A stretch of 64,000 nt of DNA from Devosia beringensis (GTDB taxonomy: Bacteria > Pseudomonadota > Alphaproteobacteria > Rhizobiales > Devosiaceae), in assembly GCF_014926585.1 (NCBI RefSeq), contig NZ_CP045422.1:868001-932000 (forward strand), read 5' to 3'. The notes below the pieces were generated by a model, which was given only the letters and a program-made list of their open reading frames with translations, was not told the DNA's origin and made no database searches. The position numbers were made by a program, and so were the translations under genes. Of the stretch, positions 14,150-24,283 are shown piece by piece. How positions within the stretch are numbered: the stretch's first letter is position 1; the number at the start of each line of letters is the position of its first letter.

Positions 14150-15091
14150 TCAAGCTGTGTTGGTGTGCCAGGGGGTGTTGTTGGCAAGGACGGCATTGGC
14201 TGTCGTGATGAGTTTGCGCATGGCGGCGACGATGGCGAGCTTTCCCGGTTTGCCCTGGGCGCGCAGCCTTTTGTAGAAGTCGCGGATGGGCGGGTTAGCA
14301 CGGATGGCCGACAGGGTGGCCATATAGAGAGCGCAGCGCACCGAGAGGCGTCCGCCGGCGATATGGGCCTGGCCGCGCATCTCACCACTATCGCGGTTGA
14401 AGGGGGCGACTCCGGCCAAGGCGGCCGCCTGCTTGTTGCCGATGCCGCCCAGCTCGGGCATTTCGGCCAGCAGCACGGCGGCCGTAGTCTGGCCGATGCC
14501 GGGGATGGTGGTGAGTAGTTCGGCCCGGCGCCGTAGCGTCGCATCGCTATCGATCTGGCGGGTAATGGCCCGATCCATCTCGCCGATCTGGCTGCTCAAG
14601 AAGCCTATATGAGCATCGATGCTGGCTTGCGCCAGCGCAGCTTCAGGGTGCTCGCGACGCTGCTTTTCCATGGCCAGCATATCCACCATCTGGCGGCGCC
14701 GGCGCACCAGATCGGCCATTTCCACGGCATTTGGATCGTAGAGGGGGTCGGGATCTGGGTGCATCAGGTGAGCGAAGCGCAGGATCGCCGCGGCGTCAAT
14801 CGCATCGGTCTTGGCCAGCAGCCCGTCGGCCCGAGCCAGATCGCGCACCCGGCGCGGGTTAATCGTGCTCAGCGCGATGCCATGCTGGCTGAGCGAGCGG
14901 GCCATCAGCCGCGTATAGCTGCCGGTGGCCTCACAGACCAGATGGGGCCGGGTCAGGCTGGAGATCTTTTGCACCAACCGAGCCATGCCAGCCGGATTAT
15001 TGGACACGCGCAACCTGCTCGAGCCGGTGATGGCCAGATCCAGGTGCTTCTTGGAGACGTCGACACCAACATAGTCTGGGGAAAAAATCAT
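14150..15091 (-). CDS. IS110-family transposase (DEDD recombinase)
   Basis: A 313-residue transposase. The N-terminal RuvC-like DEDD domain shows YVGVDVSKKHLD, VCEATGSYTRLM and LLAKTDAIDAAAILRFA, which carry the acidic metal-binding residues. The C-terminal transposase_20 domain has IPGIGQTTAAVLLAEMPELG, AALAGVAPFNRDSGEMRGQAHIAGGR and LSVRCALYM with the conserved serine used for strand transfer. The start MIFSPDYVGVDVSKKHLD at 15091 fits the family; the frame is open further upstream, but that stretch is the non-coding end. The gene looks intact, so the element may be active. Confidence 0.93.
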   Translation of the reverse strand: MIFSPDYVGVDVSKKHLDLAITGSSRLRVSNNPAGMARLVQKISSLTRPHLVCEATGSYTRLMARSLSQHGIALSTINPRRVRDLARADGLLAKTDAIDAAAILRFAHLMHPDPDPLYDPNAVEMADLVRRRRQMVDMLAMEKQRREHPEAALAQASIDAHIGFLSSQIGEMDRAITRQIDSDATLRRRAELLTTIPGIGQTTAAVLLAEMPELGGIGNKQAAALAGVAPFNRDSGEMRGQAHIAGGRLSVRCALYMATLSAIRANPPIRDFYKRLRAQGKPGKLAIVAAMRKLITTANAVLANNTPWHTNTA

Positions 15092-15346
15092 GATCGCTCT
15101 GCCTTGTATGCGGGCATGTCGCCCAACCAACCGTTCGAGACAGTCAAGATGGGCCGGACGCGTCTGCTCAGGGGCGAGCTTGCTGGCTCTTGGGGGACAC
15201 ACGCTATCCAGCCCGGGAGCCCGGTAAACCCAAAGCTCCCAGGCCGATCATCGCCAATCACGGCCTCCAAGCAAACATACAAGGGGGAGGGACAGATCGA
15301 GTTTGACGAACAACCTCACCCAACCCACTGCGCGGTCCCTCCCCCT
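15092..15346 (-). ncRNA. Putative bridge RNA region in the non-coding end of the IS
   Basis: IS110 elements encode a bridge RNA from the non-coding end before the transposase; this 255-nt segment is in that position and has no protein-like frame of its own. AGGGGGAGGGAC at 15282-15293 is an exact reverse complement of the terminal GTCCCTCCCCCT at 15335-15346. An RNA read on the minus strand would therefore contain a copy of the junction sequence that could guide donor or target pairing. A further stem (GAGCTTTGG...CCGGGCTC) lies downstream. Exact RNA ends cannot be set by eye. Confidence 0.5.
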
Positions 15347-17214: not shown

Positions 17215-17886
17215 ATGCGTATTCTGCTTGTTGAAGACAATGAAGACCTGGGCGAGGCGATCGAGAAGCGCCTGCGCAGCGCCGGCCATTCGGTGGAATG
17301 GGTGCGCGACGGCAATGACGTGGTGCCCACGGCCGAGGGCGATGACTTCGATGCGGTGGCGCTCGACCTTATGCTGCCCAATCGCGACGGCATCAGCCTG
17401 ATCGCCGAATTGCGCCGGCGCAAGTTTGCCGCGCCAATCCTGGTCATTACCGCCCGCTCGGAAATCGACGACAAGGTGAGCCTGCTCGACCTGGGCGCGG
17501 ACGACTATCTAGTCAAGCCATTCGACCTGCGCGAGCTCGAGGCGCGCTTAAGGGCGCTGATCCGGCGCACCGGCGGGCAGACCACGAGCACGCTGGCGGT
17601 GGGGAACCTCGAAATGGACCTGGCCGGGCTCAATGCCAGTGTCGACGGGCGTTCGCTGGAGCTGGGGCGGCGGGAATTCAGGCTGCTCGAAATCCTCGTC
17701 ACCCATGCCGGCAAGGTGGTGCCCAAGGAGCGGCTGATGAACCAGCTGTTCAATTTCGACGAGGCGGTGTCGGTCAATGCGCTCGAGCTGCATATCTCGC
17801 GGCTACGCAAGAAGCTCGAGCCGGCCAATATCGAGATCGGCACGGTGCGCGGGGTGGGTTACGTGGTGCGGGCCCCGCATGGGTAG
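17215..17886 (+). CDS. OmpR/TctD-type response regulator
   Basis: A 223-residue two-component regulator. The N-terminal receiver domain (1-115) has the acidic pair (VEDNED), phosphoacceptor D51 in VALDLMLPNRDG, the conserved Thr/Ser (ITARS) and Lys in YLVKPFD. The C-terminal winged-helix DNA-binding domain (about 125-220) ends in VNALELHISRLRKKL...IGTVRGVGYVVR. Resemblance to the TctD/QseB branch is strong. The partner kinase follows at 18096, and a tctCBA transporter lies 3 kb away, which fits a TctDE-like role by inference. Confidence 0.92.
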   Translation: MRILLVEDNEDLGEAIEKRLRSAGHSVEWVRDGNDVVPTAEGDDFDAVALDLMLPNRDGISLIAELRRRKFAAPILVITARSEIDDKVSLLDLGADDYLVKPFDLRELEARLRALIRRTGGQTTSTLAVGNLEMDLAGLNASVDGRSLELGRREFRLLEILVTHAGKVVPKERLMNQLFNFDEAVSVNALELHISRLRKKLEPANIEIGTVRGVGYVVRAPHG

Positions 17887-17920
17887 AGACCGCTTGGAAA
17901 CTCTACTGCGTCGGCCAACT

Positions 17921-17991
17921 GTCGGCGTTTTCTCCGCTTCCGGTGCTCACGTACACATGTACGCTGCGCTCCGGTTCTCGAAAACACCGAC
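17921..17991. repeat. 71-bp imperfect inverted repeat between regulator and kinase genes
   Basis: The left arm starts GTCGGCGTTTTC and the right arm ends GAAAACACCGAC; the centre is GTACA-CA-TGTAC (17951-17962). The arms match at their outer 12, middle CCGG and inner CGTACA segments. It resembles dispersed intergenic repeats common in rhizobial genomes. It could fold into a long hairpin in the bicistronic transcript and set the kinase/regulator ratio (inference). Confidence 0.6.
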
Positions 17992-18046
17992 ATTTGACTC
18001 GCCGCAGCGAATTTCGAAACGGTCTCTCACCACGACCACCGCGCGC

Positions 18047-18071
18047 CACCCTCCCCGCGAGGGGGAGGGTG
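18047..18071. repeat. Short GC-rich palindromic repeat before the kinase gene
   Basis: CACCCTCCCC and GGGGAGGGTG form a 10-bp inverted repeat with a 5-nt loop, 25 bp before the kinase start. It is the same family as the repeats at 6382-6404 and around the insertion sequence. Confidence 0.7.
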
Positions 18072-18095
18072 CCCATCTCAATTGCGGAGGCGGCG

Positions 18096-20564
18096 GTGCC
18101 GGTCGGTAAGTCGTTTTCGATCCGCCGGCGCATCCTGGCGCTGGCTTTGGTGCTGCTGCTGGCGGCGGCGGTGGTGCTGATCGTGTTTATCCGCGACTAT
18201 GCCGAGCGCTCGGCCGACCGGGCCTTTGACCGGCTGCTGGCGGCCTCGGCCCTGACCATTGCCGGGGCGGTGCAGGTGGAGGGCGACACGGTGATCGTGG
18301 AGCTGCCCTTTGCCTCGTTCGGCATGTTTTCCGGGCGCGACCGGGTATTCTATGCGGTGGAGACGCCGGGCGGGACGGCGGTGACCGGCTATGCGGACCT
18401 GTCGGCCGACCTGCCGGAGCTGACTTCGGCGGGGCCGGTCTTTGCCGATACGATGTATCGCGGCGAACTGGTGCGGGTGGCGAGCGTGGGACGGCTGACC
18501 TCGTCGGGCGGGGACGCGGACTGGGTGACCATCCATGTCGCGGAAACCCAGAGCGAGCGCGAGGCGCTGGCGGCGGAAATCCTGGGCAATGCCATCGTGC
18601 CGGTGGTGGCGCTGACGCTGCTGGCCATTGCCCTGGTCTGGTTCGGCATCGGACGGATGTTTGCGCCGCTCTATCAGCTGGAGCAGGAATTGCGCGGGCG
18701 GGCGCCCGATGACCTGTCGCCGGTCACCGTGCCGGTGCCGGTGGAGGTGAGCCAGCTGGTGAGCGGGCTCAATGCCTTCATGAGCCGGCTGGGCAGTGCC
18801 ATGGAGCGGGTGACCGGGCTGGTGGCCGAGGCGGCCCATGAGGTGCGCACGCCGCTGGCCTCGCTGCGGGCGCAGGCCGAGGTGGCAATGGATGAGCAGG
18901 ATCCCGAGGCGTTGCGCCGCAGGATCGGCCGCATCCACCAGGGCGCGGTGCAGGCCAGCCAGCTGGTGAGCCAGCTGCTGATGGAGGCGACCATTACCCA
19001 TCGGCTGGAAAACCAGGAGAGCGATGCCACGGTGCTGGGCGCGGTGGTGGAGGAGGTGCGGCAGCGGCTGGACCCCGACCAGGCGCGGCGGCTGGTGGTG
19101 GCCATGGACACGGTGGCGGCCGAAGCTGCCATCCGCGGCGACCGGGTGGCGCTGCGCGAAATGGTGCGCAATGTGGTGGACAATGCCCTGGTCTATTCGG
19201 ATGGCGTGGTGGAGATCGATGGCACGGTGACCCAGGGCATGATGACACTGGCGGTGCGCGACCGCGGCCCCGGCATTGCCGATGGCGAAAAGACCAGCGT
19301 GCTGGAGCGGTTCAAGCGCGGCACGGCCAGCGGCAGCAGGGCGGGGTCGGGGCTGGGCCTGTCCATCGTCAAGCGCGTGGTGGAAGCCCATCGCGGCGCG
19401 CTGCGGCTGAACGACCGACCGGGCGGCGGGCTGGTGGTGGAAATCGACCTGCCGACCGTCGGGCGCAATCCCAAGGCCGAGCAGATGCGCAAGGCACTGG
19501 GGAGCCTGTCGGCCCTCGTGGTGTGCCTGATGCTGGCGCAGCCGCAGGAGGCCCAGGCCGCCGCCACGACCTATCCGGCACGCGATGGCAGCAGCGACAG
19601 GGTCCTCACCATTGTGGGGGTGACCGACACGCCGCTCTTCGCCCAGTTCATCGCCGGCTTCCAGGGCCTGCATGGCGGGGTGACGGTGGTCTATGAGGAG
19701 ACGGACTCGCTGCCGCTCTATGAGCGCTATCTGGCTGGCACCATGGACCCCAAGCCGGACCTGCTGATCAGTTCGGCCGCCGACCTGATGATCAAGCTGG
19801 CCAATGACGGCCATGCCATGGCCTATGAAACGCCCTGGCTGGGCGCCCTGCCCGACTGGGCGCATTGGCGCAATGAGGTGTTCGGCTTCACCTTCGAGCC
19901 GGCGGTTATCATCTACAATCCCGACCTGATCGCAGCCGAAGAGGCGCCGCGCACGCATTTGCGGCTGGCCGAAATGCTGGAGAGCCAGACCGAGCGCTTC
20001 CGCGGGAAAATCGCCACCTATGACATTGCCCTGAGCGGGGTGGGCTATCTGCTGGCGGCGCAGGACCAGGTGATCTCGTCGAACTTCTGGCGGCTGGCGG
20101 CGGCCTTTGGCCGGGTGGAAGCGCAGTTCAGCGGCTCGAGCCCGGCGATCCTCAATGGCGTGGCCGACGGCTCGCTGGCGCTGGGCTTCAACGTGCTGGG
20201 CTCCTATGCCTTCGGGCGCAAGGCGGCGGGGGCCAATATCGACATCGTGGTGCCCGATGACTATGTGCTGGTGCTGACCCGCGCCATGCTGATCCCGCGC
20301 GATGCGCCGTTTCCCGAACTGGGCAAGGACTTTGTCGATTTCGCGCTGTCGCCGGCGGGGCAGAGCATTGCCGCGGGGCAGACGGCGCTGGGGGCCGTGG
20401 TCAGCGGCACGCGGGGGGAATGGACCAGCGAGAGTATTGCCGGCCAGGGGCGCGGGGTGATCCAGCCGATCGGCCTGGGACCCTCGCTGATGGTCTCGCT
20501 CGACCAGCAGCGGCGGAAGCGCTTCCTCGATACCTGGAACGAGATCGTGTCGCCGGGGCGCTAG
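18096..20564 (+). CDS. Histidine kinase fused to a periplasmic solute-binding domain
   Basis: An 822-residue protein. TM1 is about residues 14-33, then a periplasmic sensor, TM2 at about 163-187, a HAMP-like linker, HisKA with H248 (AEAAHEVRTPLASL), and an HATPase with NVVDNALVYS, DRGPGIADGE and SGLGLSIVKRVVE, ending near residue 455. With no break in frame, a signal-peptide-like segment follows (M464, SLSALVVCLMLAQ...AQAAA), then a complete extracellular solute-binding domain (about 490-822). That domain contains DLLISSAADLMIKL, EPAVIIYNPDLIA and FVDFALSPAGQSIAAGQ, as in iron/AfuA-type binding proteins. In relatives these are usually separate genes. An internal start at 19485 could also release a secreted binding protein. 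GTG at 18096 follows GGAGG at 5-nt spacing. Confidence 0.85.
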   Translation: MPVGKSFSIRRRILALALVLLLAAAVVLIVFIRDYAERSADRAFDRLLAASALTIAGAVQVEGDTVIVELPFASFGMFSGRDRVFYAVETPGGTAVTGYADLSADLPELTSAGPVFADTMYRGELVRVASVGRLTSSGGDADWVTIHVAETQSEREALAAEILGNAIVPVVALTLLAIALVWFGIGRMFAPLYQLEQELRGRAPDDLSPVTVPVPVEVSQLVSGLNAFMSRLGSAMERVTGLVAEAAHEVRTPLASLRAQAEVAMDEQDPEALRRRIGRIHQGAVQASQLVSQLLMEATITHRLENQESDATVLGAVVEEVRQRLDPDQARRLVVAMDTVAAEAAIRGDRVALREMVRNVVDNALVYSDGVVEIDGTVTQGMMTLAVRDRGPGIADGEKTSVLERFKRGTASGSRAGSGLGLSIVKRVVEAHRGALRLNDRPGGGLVVEIDLPTVGRNPKAEQMRKALGSLSALVVCLMLAQPQEAQAAATTYPARDGSSDRVLTIVGVTDTPLFAQFIAGFQGLHGGVTVVYEETDSLPLYERYLAGTMDPKPDLLISSAADLMIKLANDGHAMAYETPWLGALPDWAHWRNEVFGFTFEPAVIIYNPDLIAAEEAPRTHLRLAEMLESQTERFRGKIATYDIALSGVGYLLAAQDQVISSNFWRLAAAFGRVEAQFSGSSPAILNGVADGSLALGFNVLGSYAFGRKAAGANIDIVVPDDYVLVLTRAMLIPRDAPFPELGKDFVDFALSPAGQSIAAGQTALGAVVSGTRGEWTSESIAGQGRGVIQPIGLGPSLMVSLDQQRRKRFLDTWNEIVSPGR

Positions 20565-21202: not shown

Positions 21203-22750
21203 CTAGTCTTCGTCGCTGGCCAGTTGCCCGAGCACGGCGCCCTGGCCGCGCAGGCGGAACCAGAGCGGGATCAACACCGCAGCAGCCGCCAGCGTGTAGA
21301 GCACGATGGCGATAGGCGAATGCACCAGAATGCCCAGATCGCCCTGGGAAATCGCCAGGGCCCGGCGCAATTGCTGCTCGGCCATGGGACCCAGAATGAG
21401 GCCGATGACCACCGGGGCGATGGGATAGCCGAAGCGGCGCAGCAGATAGCCCAGAATGCCGAAGGCCAGCAGCATCATCAGCTCGAAGGAAAAGCGGATG
21501 CCCAACAGGTTGCCCGACATGGCGCCATTGGCGCCCAGCGTGCCCAGGGTGGCAAAGACCAGGATGCCGCCATAGAGCCAGGGCTTGGGAATGGCGAGCA
21601 GCTTCACCCACAGACCGATCAGCGGCAGGTTGAGCACAACCAGCATGAAATTGGCGACCAGCAGGCTGGCGATCAGCGCCCAGACCAGGCTGGCATTGTT
21701 GGTGAACAGCAGCGGGCCGGGCTGCAGGCCGAACTGCTGGAAGCCGGCCAGCATGATAGCCGCAGTCGCCGAGGTGGGCAGGCCCAGGGTCAGCAGCGGC
21801 ACCAGGGTGCCGGCGGCCGAGGCATTGTTGGCGGCTTCGGGGCCGGCGACGCCTTCAATGGCGCCTTCGCCGAATTCTTCGGGATGCTTGGTCAGCTGCC
21901 GCTCGGCGGCATAGGAAAAGAAGGTGCCGATCTCGGCGCCGCCGGCAGGCATGGCGCCGATGGGAAAGCCGATCAGCGTGCCGCGCAGCCAGGGCGCCCA
22001 GGAGCGCTTCCAATCCTCAATCGTCATCCAGACCGAGCCTTTGACGGCCAGGATCTCGTCCTTGATGCTGCCCGAGGTGCTGGCGATCATCAGGGTTTCA
22101 CCGATGGCGAAAAGAGCCACGGCCAGCGTCGTGACCTCGATGCCGTCGAGCAGATCGGGAATGCCGAAGGCCAGGCGGGCCTGGCCGGTCTGCAGATCGA
22201 TGCCGATTATGCCCAGGCCCAGGCCAATGAACAAAGCGGTGACACCGCGCAAAGCAGAGTCGCCAAAGGCCGCCGAGACGGTGATGAAGGCCAGCACCAT
22301 GAGGGCGAAATAGTCGGCTGGACCGAACATCAGCGCGAACTTGACGACGAAGGGGGCGATGAAGGCGAGCGCCAGGGTGGCGATCAGCCCGGCCACGAAG
22401 GAGCCGATGGCCGAGGTGGCCAAAGCGGGGCCGCCGCGACCCTTGCGGGCCATCTTGTTGCCCTCGAGCGCGGTGACGATGGAGGCGCTTTCGCCGGGGG
22501 TATTGAGCAGGATGGAGGTGGTCGAGCCGCCATACATGCCGCCATAATAGATGCCGGCAAACATGATGAGCGAGCCGGCCGCATCAAGCTTGTAGGTGAC
22601 GGGCAGCAGCAGGGCCACGGTCAGCGCCGGGCCGATGCCGGGCAGGACGCCGACGGCGGTGCCCAGGGTAACGCCGATAAAGGCATAGATCAGGTTCTGC
22701 CACTGCAGCGCAGCCAGCAGGCCCTGTCCGAGCAGGCCGAAGGTATCCAT
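21203..22750 (-). CDS. tctA: Tripartite tricarboxylate transporter, large permease TctA
   Basis: A 515-residue inner-membrane protein with about twelve helices, the large subunit of a binding-protein-dependent secondary transporter for citrate-like acids. Signatures are [97 protein letters not shown] and [29 protein letters not shown]. It is the last gene of a tctC-tctB-tctA operon and sits 15 bp after tctB. Confidence 0.95.
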
Positions 22751-22765: not shown

Positions 22766-23251
22766 TCACGGGAGAAGCCGCTCGAGAGGTCCGGCCGGCA
22801 GCGACAATTGCAGGCCGCGCGCGAAGATGAACCAGACGATGAGCGAAAAGAGGATGCCGATGGGAATGGTCTGCCACAGCGGGCCGCGGCCAAAGCCCTT
22901 GGCGGTGAAGGCAAAGAGCAGACCGGTGGCGATGGCAAAGCCGGCGGTTGAGAGCAGCAGGATCTGGGTGACCAGGCCCGCGACGATCCACAGCATCGGG
23001 GTGAAGCTGCCCTTGTCGCGGGCGGGAAAGCTGCCGCGCAGGGCCGAAACCAGCGTGCCGAGCGACAGCAGGACCAGGCCGCCGGCGATGACATAGGGAA
23101 AGACAGTGGGGCCGATACGCTGCTGCACCGGCGGCACGCGCATCAGGCTCATCTGCCAGATGATGACCCCGGCAATGATCGCCAGGATCGCCGCTATGAC
23201 AAGCGCCGCCCCATCGGGGCGGCGCGAGAGATTGGGTGAGCCGGTGGTCAT
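22766..23251 (-). CDS. tctB: Tripartite tricarboxylate transporter, small permease TctB
   Basis: A 161-residue protein with four predicted helices (LVIAAILAIIAGVIIWQM; VFPYVIAGGLVLLSLGTLVSAL; MLWIVAGLVTQILLL and GFAIATGLLFAFTAKGFG; IPIGILFSLIVWFIFARGLQLSLPAGPLE). The RIGPTVFPYVIAGGL and terminal LPAGPLE segments are typical. It is the small membrane subunit that pairs with TctA. Its start overlaps the tctC stop by 4 bp. Confidence 0.92.
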   Translation of the reverse strand: MTTGSPNLSRRPDGAALVIAAILAIIAGVIIWQMSLMRVPPVQQRIGPTVFPYVIAGGLVLLSLGTLVSALRGSFPARDKGSFTPMLWIVAGLVTQILLLSTAGFAIATGLLFAFTAKGFGRGPLWQTIPIGILFSLIVWFIFARGLQLSLPAGPLERLLP

Positions 23252-24186
23252 TGCACCAGGCCAACGTCTTTCAGGATGGCCGAGGTGGCTTCGATATCCT
23301 TGGCTAGCTGGGCGTCGAACTCGGCGCCAGCCAGGTACATGTCGACCCAGCCCTTGGTCTCCAAGGCGGTGGTCCAGGAGGCAGAGGTCACCATCTTTTC
23401 GATATCGGCGTTGATGGCAGCCTTCTGCTCGTCGGTGATGCCGGGGGCAGCGGCGACCATGCGCCAGTTTTCCACGACCACGTCGACGCCCGAATCCTTG
23501 AGGGTCGGGATGTCACCAAGCGGCTCTGCGCCGGTGACGGCCAAAGCGCGCAGGTCGCCGGCCTCGATCTGGGCAGCGAATTCGCCGGCACCGGAAATAC
23601 CCACGGTCACCTGGCCGCCGAGAACGGCCGCGAGTGCTTCACCACCGCCCGAATAGGCAATGTAGTTGACCAGGGTGGGATCGACGCCGACGGCCTTGGC
23701 GACGAGGCCAGCAGCAATATGATCGACGCCACCGGCCGAACCACCAGCCCAGGACACCGCACCGGGGTCGGCCTTGAGCATGGTCACGAGATCGGCCATC
23801 GTCTGCAGCGGCGAGTTGGCCGGCACGACGATGATGTCGGATTCGCCGGTCAGGCGGGCGATCGGCGTGACATTGGCCAGCGAGACAGGCGACTGGTTGG
23901 TCAGCACGGCGCCGACCATGACATAGCCGCCGACGATGAGAGCATCAGGATTGCCGGCATATTGATTGGCAAACTGGGCCAGGCCAATGGTGCCGCCAGC
24001 GCCGGGCACGTTGGTGACCTGCACATTGCCCGAAATGCCTTCGGTCTGCAGGGCTTCCTGCATGGTGCGGGCGGTCTGGTCCCAGCCGCCGCCGGGAGCA
24101 GCGGGTGCCATGATGGCATAGTCGGCGGCATAGGCCGAAGTCGCGAGTGCGCCAGTGAGCAGCGCAGCCAAGAACAGCTTGTTCAT
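23248..24186 (-). CDS. tctC: Tripartite tricarboxylate transporter substrate-binding protein TctC
   Basis: A 312-residue periplasmic binding protein with a cleavable signal ([22 protein letters not shown]). The family pattern [60 protein letters not shown] and [11 protein letters not shown] is clear. It captures a carboxylate and delivers it to TctAB; the exact ligand is unknown. The ATG at 24186 follows GGGAGG with ideal spacing, and the longer upstream frame is not protein-like. It is the first gene of the operon; the TctDE-like pair at 17215-20564 is a plausible regulator. Confidence 0.95.
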
Positions 24187-24283
24187 AAGTCCTCCCAAAG
24201 AATCCGGAACGTCGTTGCGTTCGTGGGGAGGAACATAGACCGCGCTGCCTGTCACCGTCCTGTCGCGGACAGACCTGACAGGA

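Follow-up and report, generated by a model that had tools for sequence, protein, structure and literature searches.

The closest described relatives of the locus reported here are the citrate-responsive systems TctDE-TctCBA of Salmonella and BctDE-BctCBA of Bordetella pertussis, where, as in our case, a TctE-like kinase and an OmpR-type regulator are encoded beside tctCBA. In Bordetella, the solute-binding protein (SBP) BctC acts on the kinase BctE and on transport (PMC5812351), and such participation of an SBP in signalling to the kinase is also what we propose for Devosia. The signalling SBP of the Bct/Tct systems is, however, the transporter's own BctC, encoded by a separate gene, whereas in Devosia the kinase gene runs on into a second SBP of a different, MctA-like family. 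An additional SBP that is not the importer's and is dedicated to the kinase is present in the three-component system CuaD-CuaS-CuaR of Ruminiclostridium cellulolyticum through its dedicated sensor SBP CuaD (PMC10384115), but there the genes are separate, the host is Gram-positive and the ligand is a sugar. The Devosia module is filed here as a variant of this three-component kind that would work like TctDE/BctDE, with a regulator that falls below the TctD cut-off. SBP folds encoded in the kinase gene itself are known from BvgS-type kinases, whose Venus-flytrap sensor domains lie N-terminal to the kinase and stay attached to it; this arrangement is not found in Devosia, where the SBP is C-terminal and comes after the HATPase domain and a predicted signal peptide. 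On the other hand, the synthesis of a membrane protein and an exported protein in a single chain, divided by signal peptidase at an internal signal sequence, is known from the cytochrome b-c1 polyprotein FbcH of Bradyrhizobium japonicum, which belongs to the respiratory chain and not to signalling, and has no homology to the Devosia fusion. A search of the open-access literature returned no report of a C-terminal SBP-kinase fusion, of its cleavage or of an internally processed signalling polyprotein, which does not prove that none exists.

The window analysed here, a stretch of 64,000 nucleotides of the Devosia beringensis genome, contains at 18096-20564 one stop-free frame of 822 residues with four Pfam assignments (2CSK_N, HisKA, HATPase_c and the SBP group), all of them exceeding the curated cut-offs (Table 1). 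These data confirmed the uninterrupted kinase-SBP frame advanced in a preliminary description of the sequence, together with its two-TM sensor kinase and full HATPase. The kinase half has the features of the TctDE/BctDE type (2CSK_N sensor domain, HisKA and HATPase), and H248, the phospho-acceptor, does not vary among 35 fused relatives. The third hydrophobic, signal-peptide-like segment of that description is found at residues 464-488, between HATPase_c and the SBP, and is followed by the matches to SBP_bac_11/1/8/6 (residues about 512-767, 1e-9 to 1e-12). The GTG start at 18096 has a GGAGG at 18086-18090 with a spacer of 5 nt; the open frame extends upstream to a GTG at 17943, but identity with the relatives starts only at residue 4-5.

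Table 1. Features of the fused gene and its neighbourhood in the window, with the basis of each assignment.
Feature	Position	Strand	Basis
OmpR-family response regulator (Response_reg + Trans_reg_C), TctD-like	17215..17886	+	Pfam; adjoins kinase in loci compared
Repetitive, palindrome-rich insert between regulator and kinase	17887..18095	.	Carries GGAGG 18086-18090
Fused gene: sensor kinase, internal signal peptide and SBP, 822 aa	18096..20564	+	Open frame, Pfam, relatives
TM1, about residues 11-33	18126..18194	+	Hydropathy
2CSK_N periplasmic sensor domain, residues 21-162 (Pfam limits)	18156..18581	+	Pfam, 3.7e-33
TM2, about residues 166-186	18591..18653	+	Hydropathy
HisKA, residues 242-301, with phospho-acceptor H248 (18837-18839)	18819..18998	+	Pfam, 8e-11; H248 invariant
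HATPase_c, residues 348-454	19137..19457	+	Pfam, 1e-20
Possible internal start codon, ATG (TTG in most close relatives)	19485..19487	+	Codon counts in subclade
Internal signal peptide, residues 464-488 (MRKALGSLSALVVCLMLAQPQEAQA); predicted signal peptidase I cut A488/A489	19485..19559	+	Conserved A-x-A; register of L099/L100
Mature SBP, residues 489-822, MctA / 3c9h fold	19560..20561	+	AlphaFold, structure and sequence match
TctA, large membrane subunit, tripartite tricarboxylate transporter	21203..22750	-	Pfam PF01970, 3e-148
TctB, small membrane subunit	22766..23251	-	PF07331
TctC, transporter's own binding protein	23248..24186	-	PF03401
Direct repeat (C/T)GACAG-N5-TGACAG before tctC, candidate response-regulator site	24249..24265	-	Single window match

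The preliminary description went on to suggest that the kinase carries its SBP on the same chain. This stands for the gene, as the fusion is real in many genomes, but the SBP itself is probably released at a conserved signal peptidase I site in the joint. In an uncleaved tether, segment 3 would be a third TM helix keeping the SBP covalently on the kinase. Such a structure is consistent with the single frame, with the Arg/Lys residues ahead of segment 3 on the cytoplasmic side, which make its orientation plausible, and with a helix given by AlphaFold at 459-481, although only about 8 residues separate this helix from the SBP fold in the model. Segment 3 (AATTYPA follows it) also has the n-, h- and c-regions of a signal peptide, with small residues at -3 and -1. 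The -3/-1 rule is established knowledge for signal peptidase sites, and we used it to judge cleavage with internal controls, TM1 being a segment of the same orientation that must remain uncut. Of 61 fused proteins, 60 have an [AVST]xA site after segment 3 and only 9 have one after TM1, its absence there in the other 52 arguing against the tether. The same can be said of hydropathy (mean best 19-residue values of 1.85 for segment 3, 3.10 for TM1 and 2.53 for TM2), since segment 3 is less hydrophobic than either of them and appears signal-peptide-like rather than anchor-like.

The conservation pattern of the joint offers a sharper view. While segment 3 as a whole is strongly variable in sequence among the 61 fused proteins, the signal peptidase positions stand out: in the 53 sequences of the main clade, aligned by anchoring at the conserved YPA motif, position -1 is Ala in 51, position -3 is A/T/V/S in 49 and position -6 is Pro in 34. 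The entropy of the -1 Ala (0.27 bit) is by far the lowest of the 30 positions before YPA, followed by that of -3 (1.40 bit). One protein (L075) has Pro at -3. A site of this type is also kept in more distant fused lineages (L081, L101-L107, L143 and L144). Moreover, L099 and L100, two close relatives that function with two genes, encode free orthologous SBPs (66-68% identical) whose N-terminal signal peptides end in the same register before the same motif. With the -1/-3 site conserved and its register shared by the free orthologues, the likely product of the gene would be a polyprotein cut by signal peptidase I, and the simplest reading of the joint is a still working, cleavable signal peptide. 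The uncleaved tether is in our opinion unlikely. The full-length AlphaFold model, which has no SBP-kinase contact, is weak (pTM 0.45), too much so to judge a contact between the SBP and 2CSK_N.

A free SBP could also come from an internal start at 19485, the other option considered in the preliminary description. Taken to its full extent, ribosomes would start at codon 464 as well, yielding a pre-SBP that has a signal peptide of the ordinary kind at its N-terminus, and making the fusion product secondary. In the 22 genomes of the window's subclade, codon 464 is ATG in 7, TTG in 14 and CTG in 1, and therefore start-competent (ATG/TTG) in 21, against a TTG share of 12.8% among the Leu codons of these genes and of 19/130 at 15 other columns where Met and Leu alternate; column 464 ranks first by TTG share among 88 Leu-rich columns. 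Parsimony on the kinase tree needs 8 changes at this codon, CTG being confined to one genome, so the bias towards start-competent codons is not one inherited event. On the other hand, neither a conserved Shine-Dalgarno sequence at codon 464 nor synonymous-site constraint around it (obs/exp 1.15) was found in the subclade, and L076 and L077 have no ATG, GTG or TTG anywhere in the junction. As a general rule of the family the internal start is ruled out, because the other fused lineages keep no start-competent codon at this position. What is left of the suggestion is a possible supplementary source of SBP in the window's subclade, where the codons kept run against codon preference; that internal initiation would make the fusion product secondary seems to us quite improbable.

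The mature SBP was modelled by AlphaFold with a pLDDT of 94.9. Its best structural matches are MctA (7f6f; Z 44.7, rmsd 1.7 A over 319 residues) and 3c9h from Agrobacterium (Z 44.3; sequence match with E 8e-66), and other SBPs such as AfuA and iron binders rank lower (Z about 30). MctA (7f6e and relatives) and 3c9h have in common with the Devosia SBP the fold, 30-36% identity and most of the citrate-contact residues of MctA, but they are free SBPs annotated as parts of ABC transporters, whereas that of Devosia is fused and predicted to bind a citrate-type ligand. The MctA structures were determined with Mg-citrate or citrate. Six residues have been mutated in the MctA entries, with a PDB numbering that we deduced from the mutant sequences: D28, S79, S164 and Y221 are identical here (D511, S560, S647 and Y704), T199 corresponds to S681 and S26 to V509; a minority of the aligned SBPs have lost MctA-equivalent citrate residues. 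Altogether, the fold and most of these residues would fit a tricarboxylate, most likely citrate or metal-citrate, as the ligand, while V509 in place of S26 counts against it.

The genes around the fusion place it in the context of transport. The regulator is TctD-like and not TctD proper, since its best NCBIfam model, TctD, gives 197 bits for an equivalog cut-off of 337. The tctA, tctB and tctC genes are convergent with the fused gene, and in most loci compared the regulator, kinase and SBP genes adjoin tctCBA in convergent, divergent or co-directional order. In several Devosia genomes the regulator-kinase junction is an insertion hotspot that breaks translational coupling. The insert of the window, with seven other partial copies in the genome, provides the GGAGG of the kinase, different repetitive, palindrome-rich inserts occupy the same spot in L041, L044, L047, L066 and L069, and in L043, lacking an insert, the end of the regulator overlaps the start of the kinase. 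An IS110-family transposase is also found in the window, beside uxaC (14150-15202, minus strand).

Upstream of tctC, the direct repeat listed in Table 1 is the only match in the window, with 0.02 expected. The window and 21 loci of the genus have GACAGGAC-N2-GACAG-like direct repeats with an 11-bp period in this position, and f50 and many split lineages likewise have TGACAG-N5-TGACAG ahead of tctC, even when TctC is only about 30-60% identical. The strict pattern with TGACAG in both halves had no match in the genome of the window, where the first half is CGACAG and the repeat is found with one mismatch. Loci from outside the class (L146-L148) were matched too. Such a layout fits an activator site of the OmpR family, which makes the repeat a candidate site for the TctD-like regulator, a connection drawn from synteny and conservation.

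As the fold of the SBP is of the ABC type, it might instead serve an import system, the fusion to the kinase merely coupling expression. No ABC permease or ATPase was found, however, among the neighbouring window genes scanned, and the adjacent transporter TctCBA has its own TctC, which leaves the second SBP free for sensing. A second fused lineage (L101, L102, L106 and L107) argues in the same direction, with no tct genes nearby and with an adjoining ABC importer of the PhnD type, likewise equipped with an SBP of its own. Whichever transporter is present, the SBP is adjacent to kinase and regulator in nearly all lineages, and a purely import role appears very unlikely. With its gene tied to those of kinase and regulator and apart from the SBP of the importer, the sensor SBP stands as in a three-component arrangement. 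Given the importer found in place of tct, the fused protein of the second lineage probably senses another ligand, and the sensor SBP seems to follow the type of transporter. The permease of that importer (phosphonate family) has two transport domains.

The same architecture, sought in other genomes, was found in 53 of 75 genomes of the genus (its own included) as a complete stop-free fused frame, with relatives 69-86% identical; G056 and G066 gave partial matches, and G012 and G052 have frameshifts within the gene. That of G012 (L128) lies in the kinase half, in a one-contig genome, and is either a pseudogene or a sequencing error. Full-length fused relatives are also present outside the genus, within the family (G128 at 70%; G110, G111, G112, G119 and G122 at 33-35%), in other families of the order (G253, G281, G327, G252 and G179 at 57%; G380 at 34%) and elsewhere in the class (G664 at 39%, G743 at 35%); in named records they are mostly Devosia, with one Pelagibacterium. 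Homologues are thus not consistently split near residue 460, and split relatives exist beside fused ones: kinase then SBP on the same strand (e.g., L108-L112), SBP divergent from kinase and regulator (L124, L125), SBP ahead of the kinase (L099, L100 and L071 of Bartonella tamiae), or kinase, one stop and SBP in one frame (L082, L083). The SBPs of these last two have a lipobox (LAGC/LAAC) and are probably lipoproteins. Whether built from the kinase half or from the SBP half, the tree requires six fused/split changes and shows three distinct fused groups (Devosia/f45/f50; L081 with L103-L105; L101/L102/L106/L107), several long branches making the exact order of events uncertain. The kinase-SBP fusion is therefore real and recurrent, the trees placing it in three or more separate lineages. 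The position of L099 and L100, inside the fused Devosia group or immediately outside it, changes with the half analysed, so a fission with change of gene order is possible for them; the opposite order in L099 (5836-8495), L100 and L071 came perhaps from tandem duplication followed by loss. An error of sequencing or assembly, or a recent accidental fusion devoid of function, as could be imagined from the frameshifts of G012 and G052 and from the one-base change that would fuse the genes of L082 and L083, is ruled out by the intact frame in 53 genomes, down to 69% identity, and by its presence in other families and orders with both halves conserved, its probability being practically nil.

Putting together what the sequences hold (the fusion, its recurrence, the cleavage signature, the synteny with tctCBA, the repeat, the MctA fold and most of the citrate residues), we infer cleavage, ligand, SBP-kinase contact and regulation of tctCBA, and regard as probable a polyprotein matured by signal peptidase into a three-component tricarboxylate sensor acting on tctCBA. 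The N-terminal half would be a TctE/BctE-like two-TM histidine kinase. Past the ATPase domain, the chain would run into a signal peptide, by which a citrate-type SBP would be exported through the Sec channel. Signal peptidase I would then cut after A488. On the kinase, the signal peptide would be left as a membrane stub at the C-terminus or be trimmed away, and the SBP, produced in a 1:1 ratio to the kinase, would be free in the periplasm; in the window's subclade, the internal start at codon 464 may add more SBP. Loaded with a tricarboxylate, most likely citrate or metal-citrate, the SBP would dock on the 2CSK_N domain of the kinase, which would phosphorylate the TctD-like regulator, and the latter would bind the TGACAG-N5-TGACAG repeat to switch on tctCBA. 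The broader proposition of a recurrently evolved signalling polyprotein, in which a histidine kinase ends in the signal peptide of the sensor SBP that serves it, the two being parted by signal peptidase I, and in which a conserved internal start is a second source of SBP in one subclade, stands for us in even balance.

That kinase and SBP have been fused recurrently is strong natural evidence of their acting together, and a large group of TctE-like kinases, encoded next to tricarboxylate or phosphonate-type transporters, thereby gains a named partner SBP. Thanks to the conserved repeat upstream of tctC, the circuit can be tested directly. If true, the cleavage of a kinase-SBP polyprotein would fix the stoichiometry of a sensor in an unusual manner; it would also caution that what domain-architecture databases list as a transmembrane linker may be a signal peptide.
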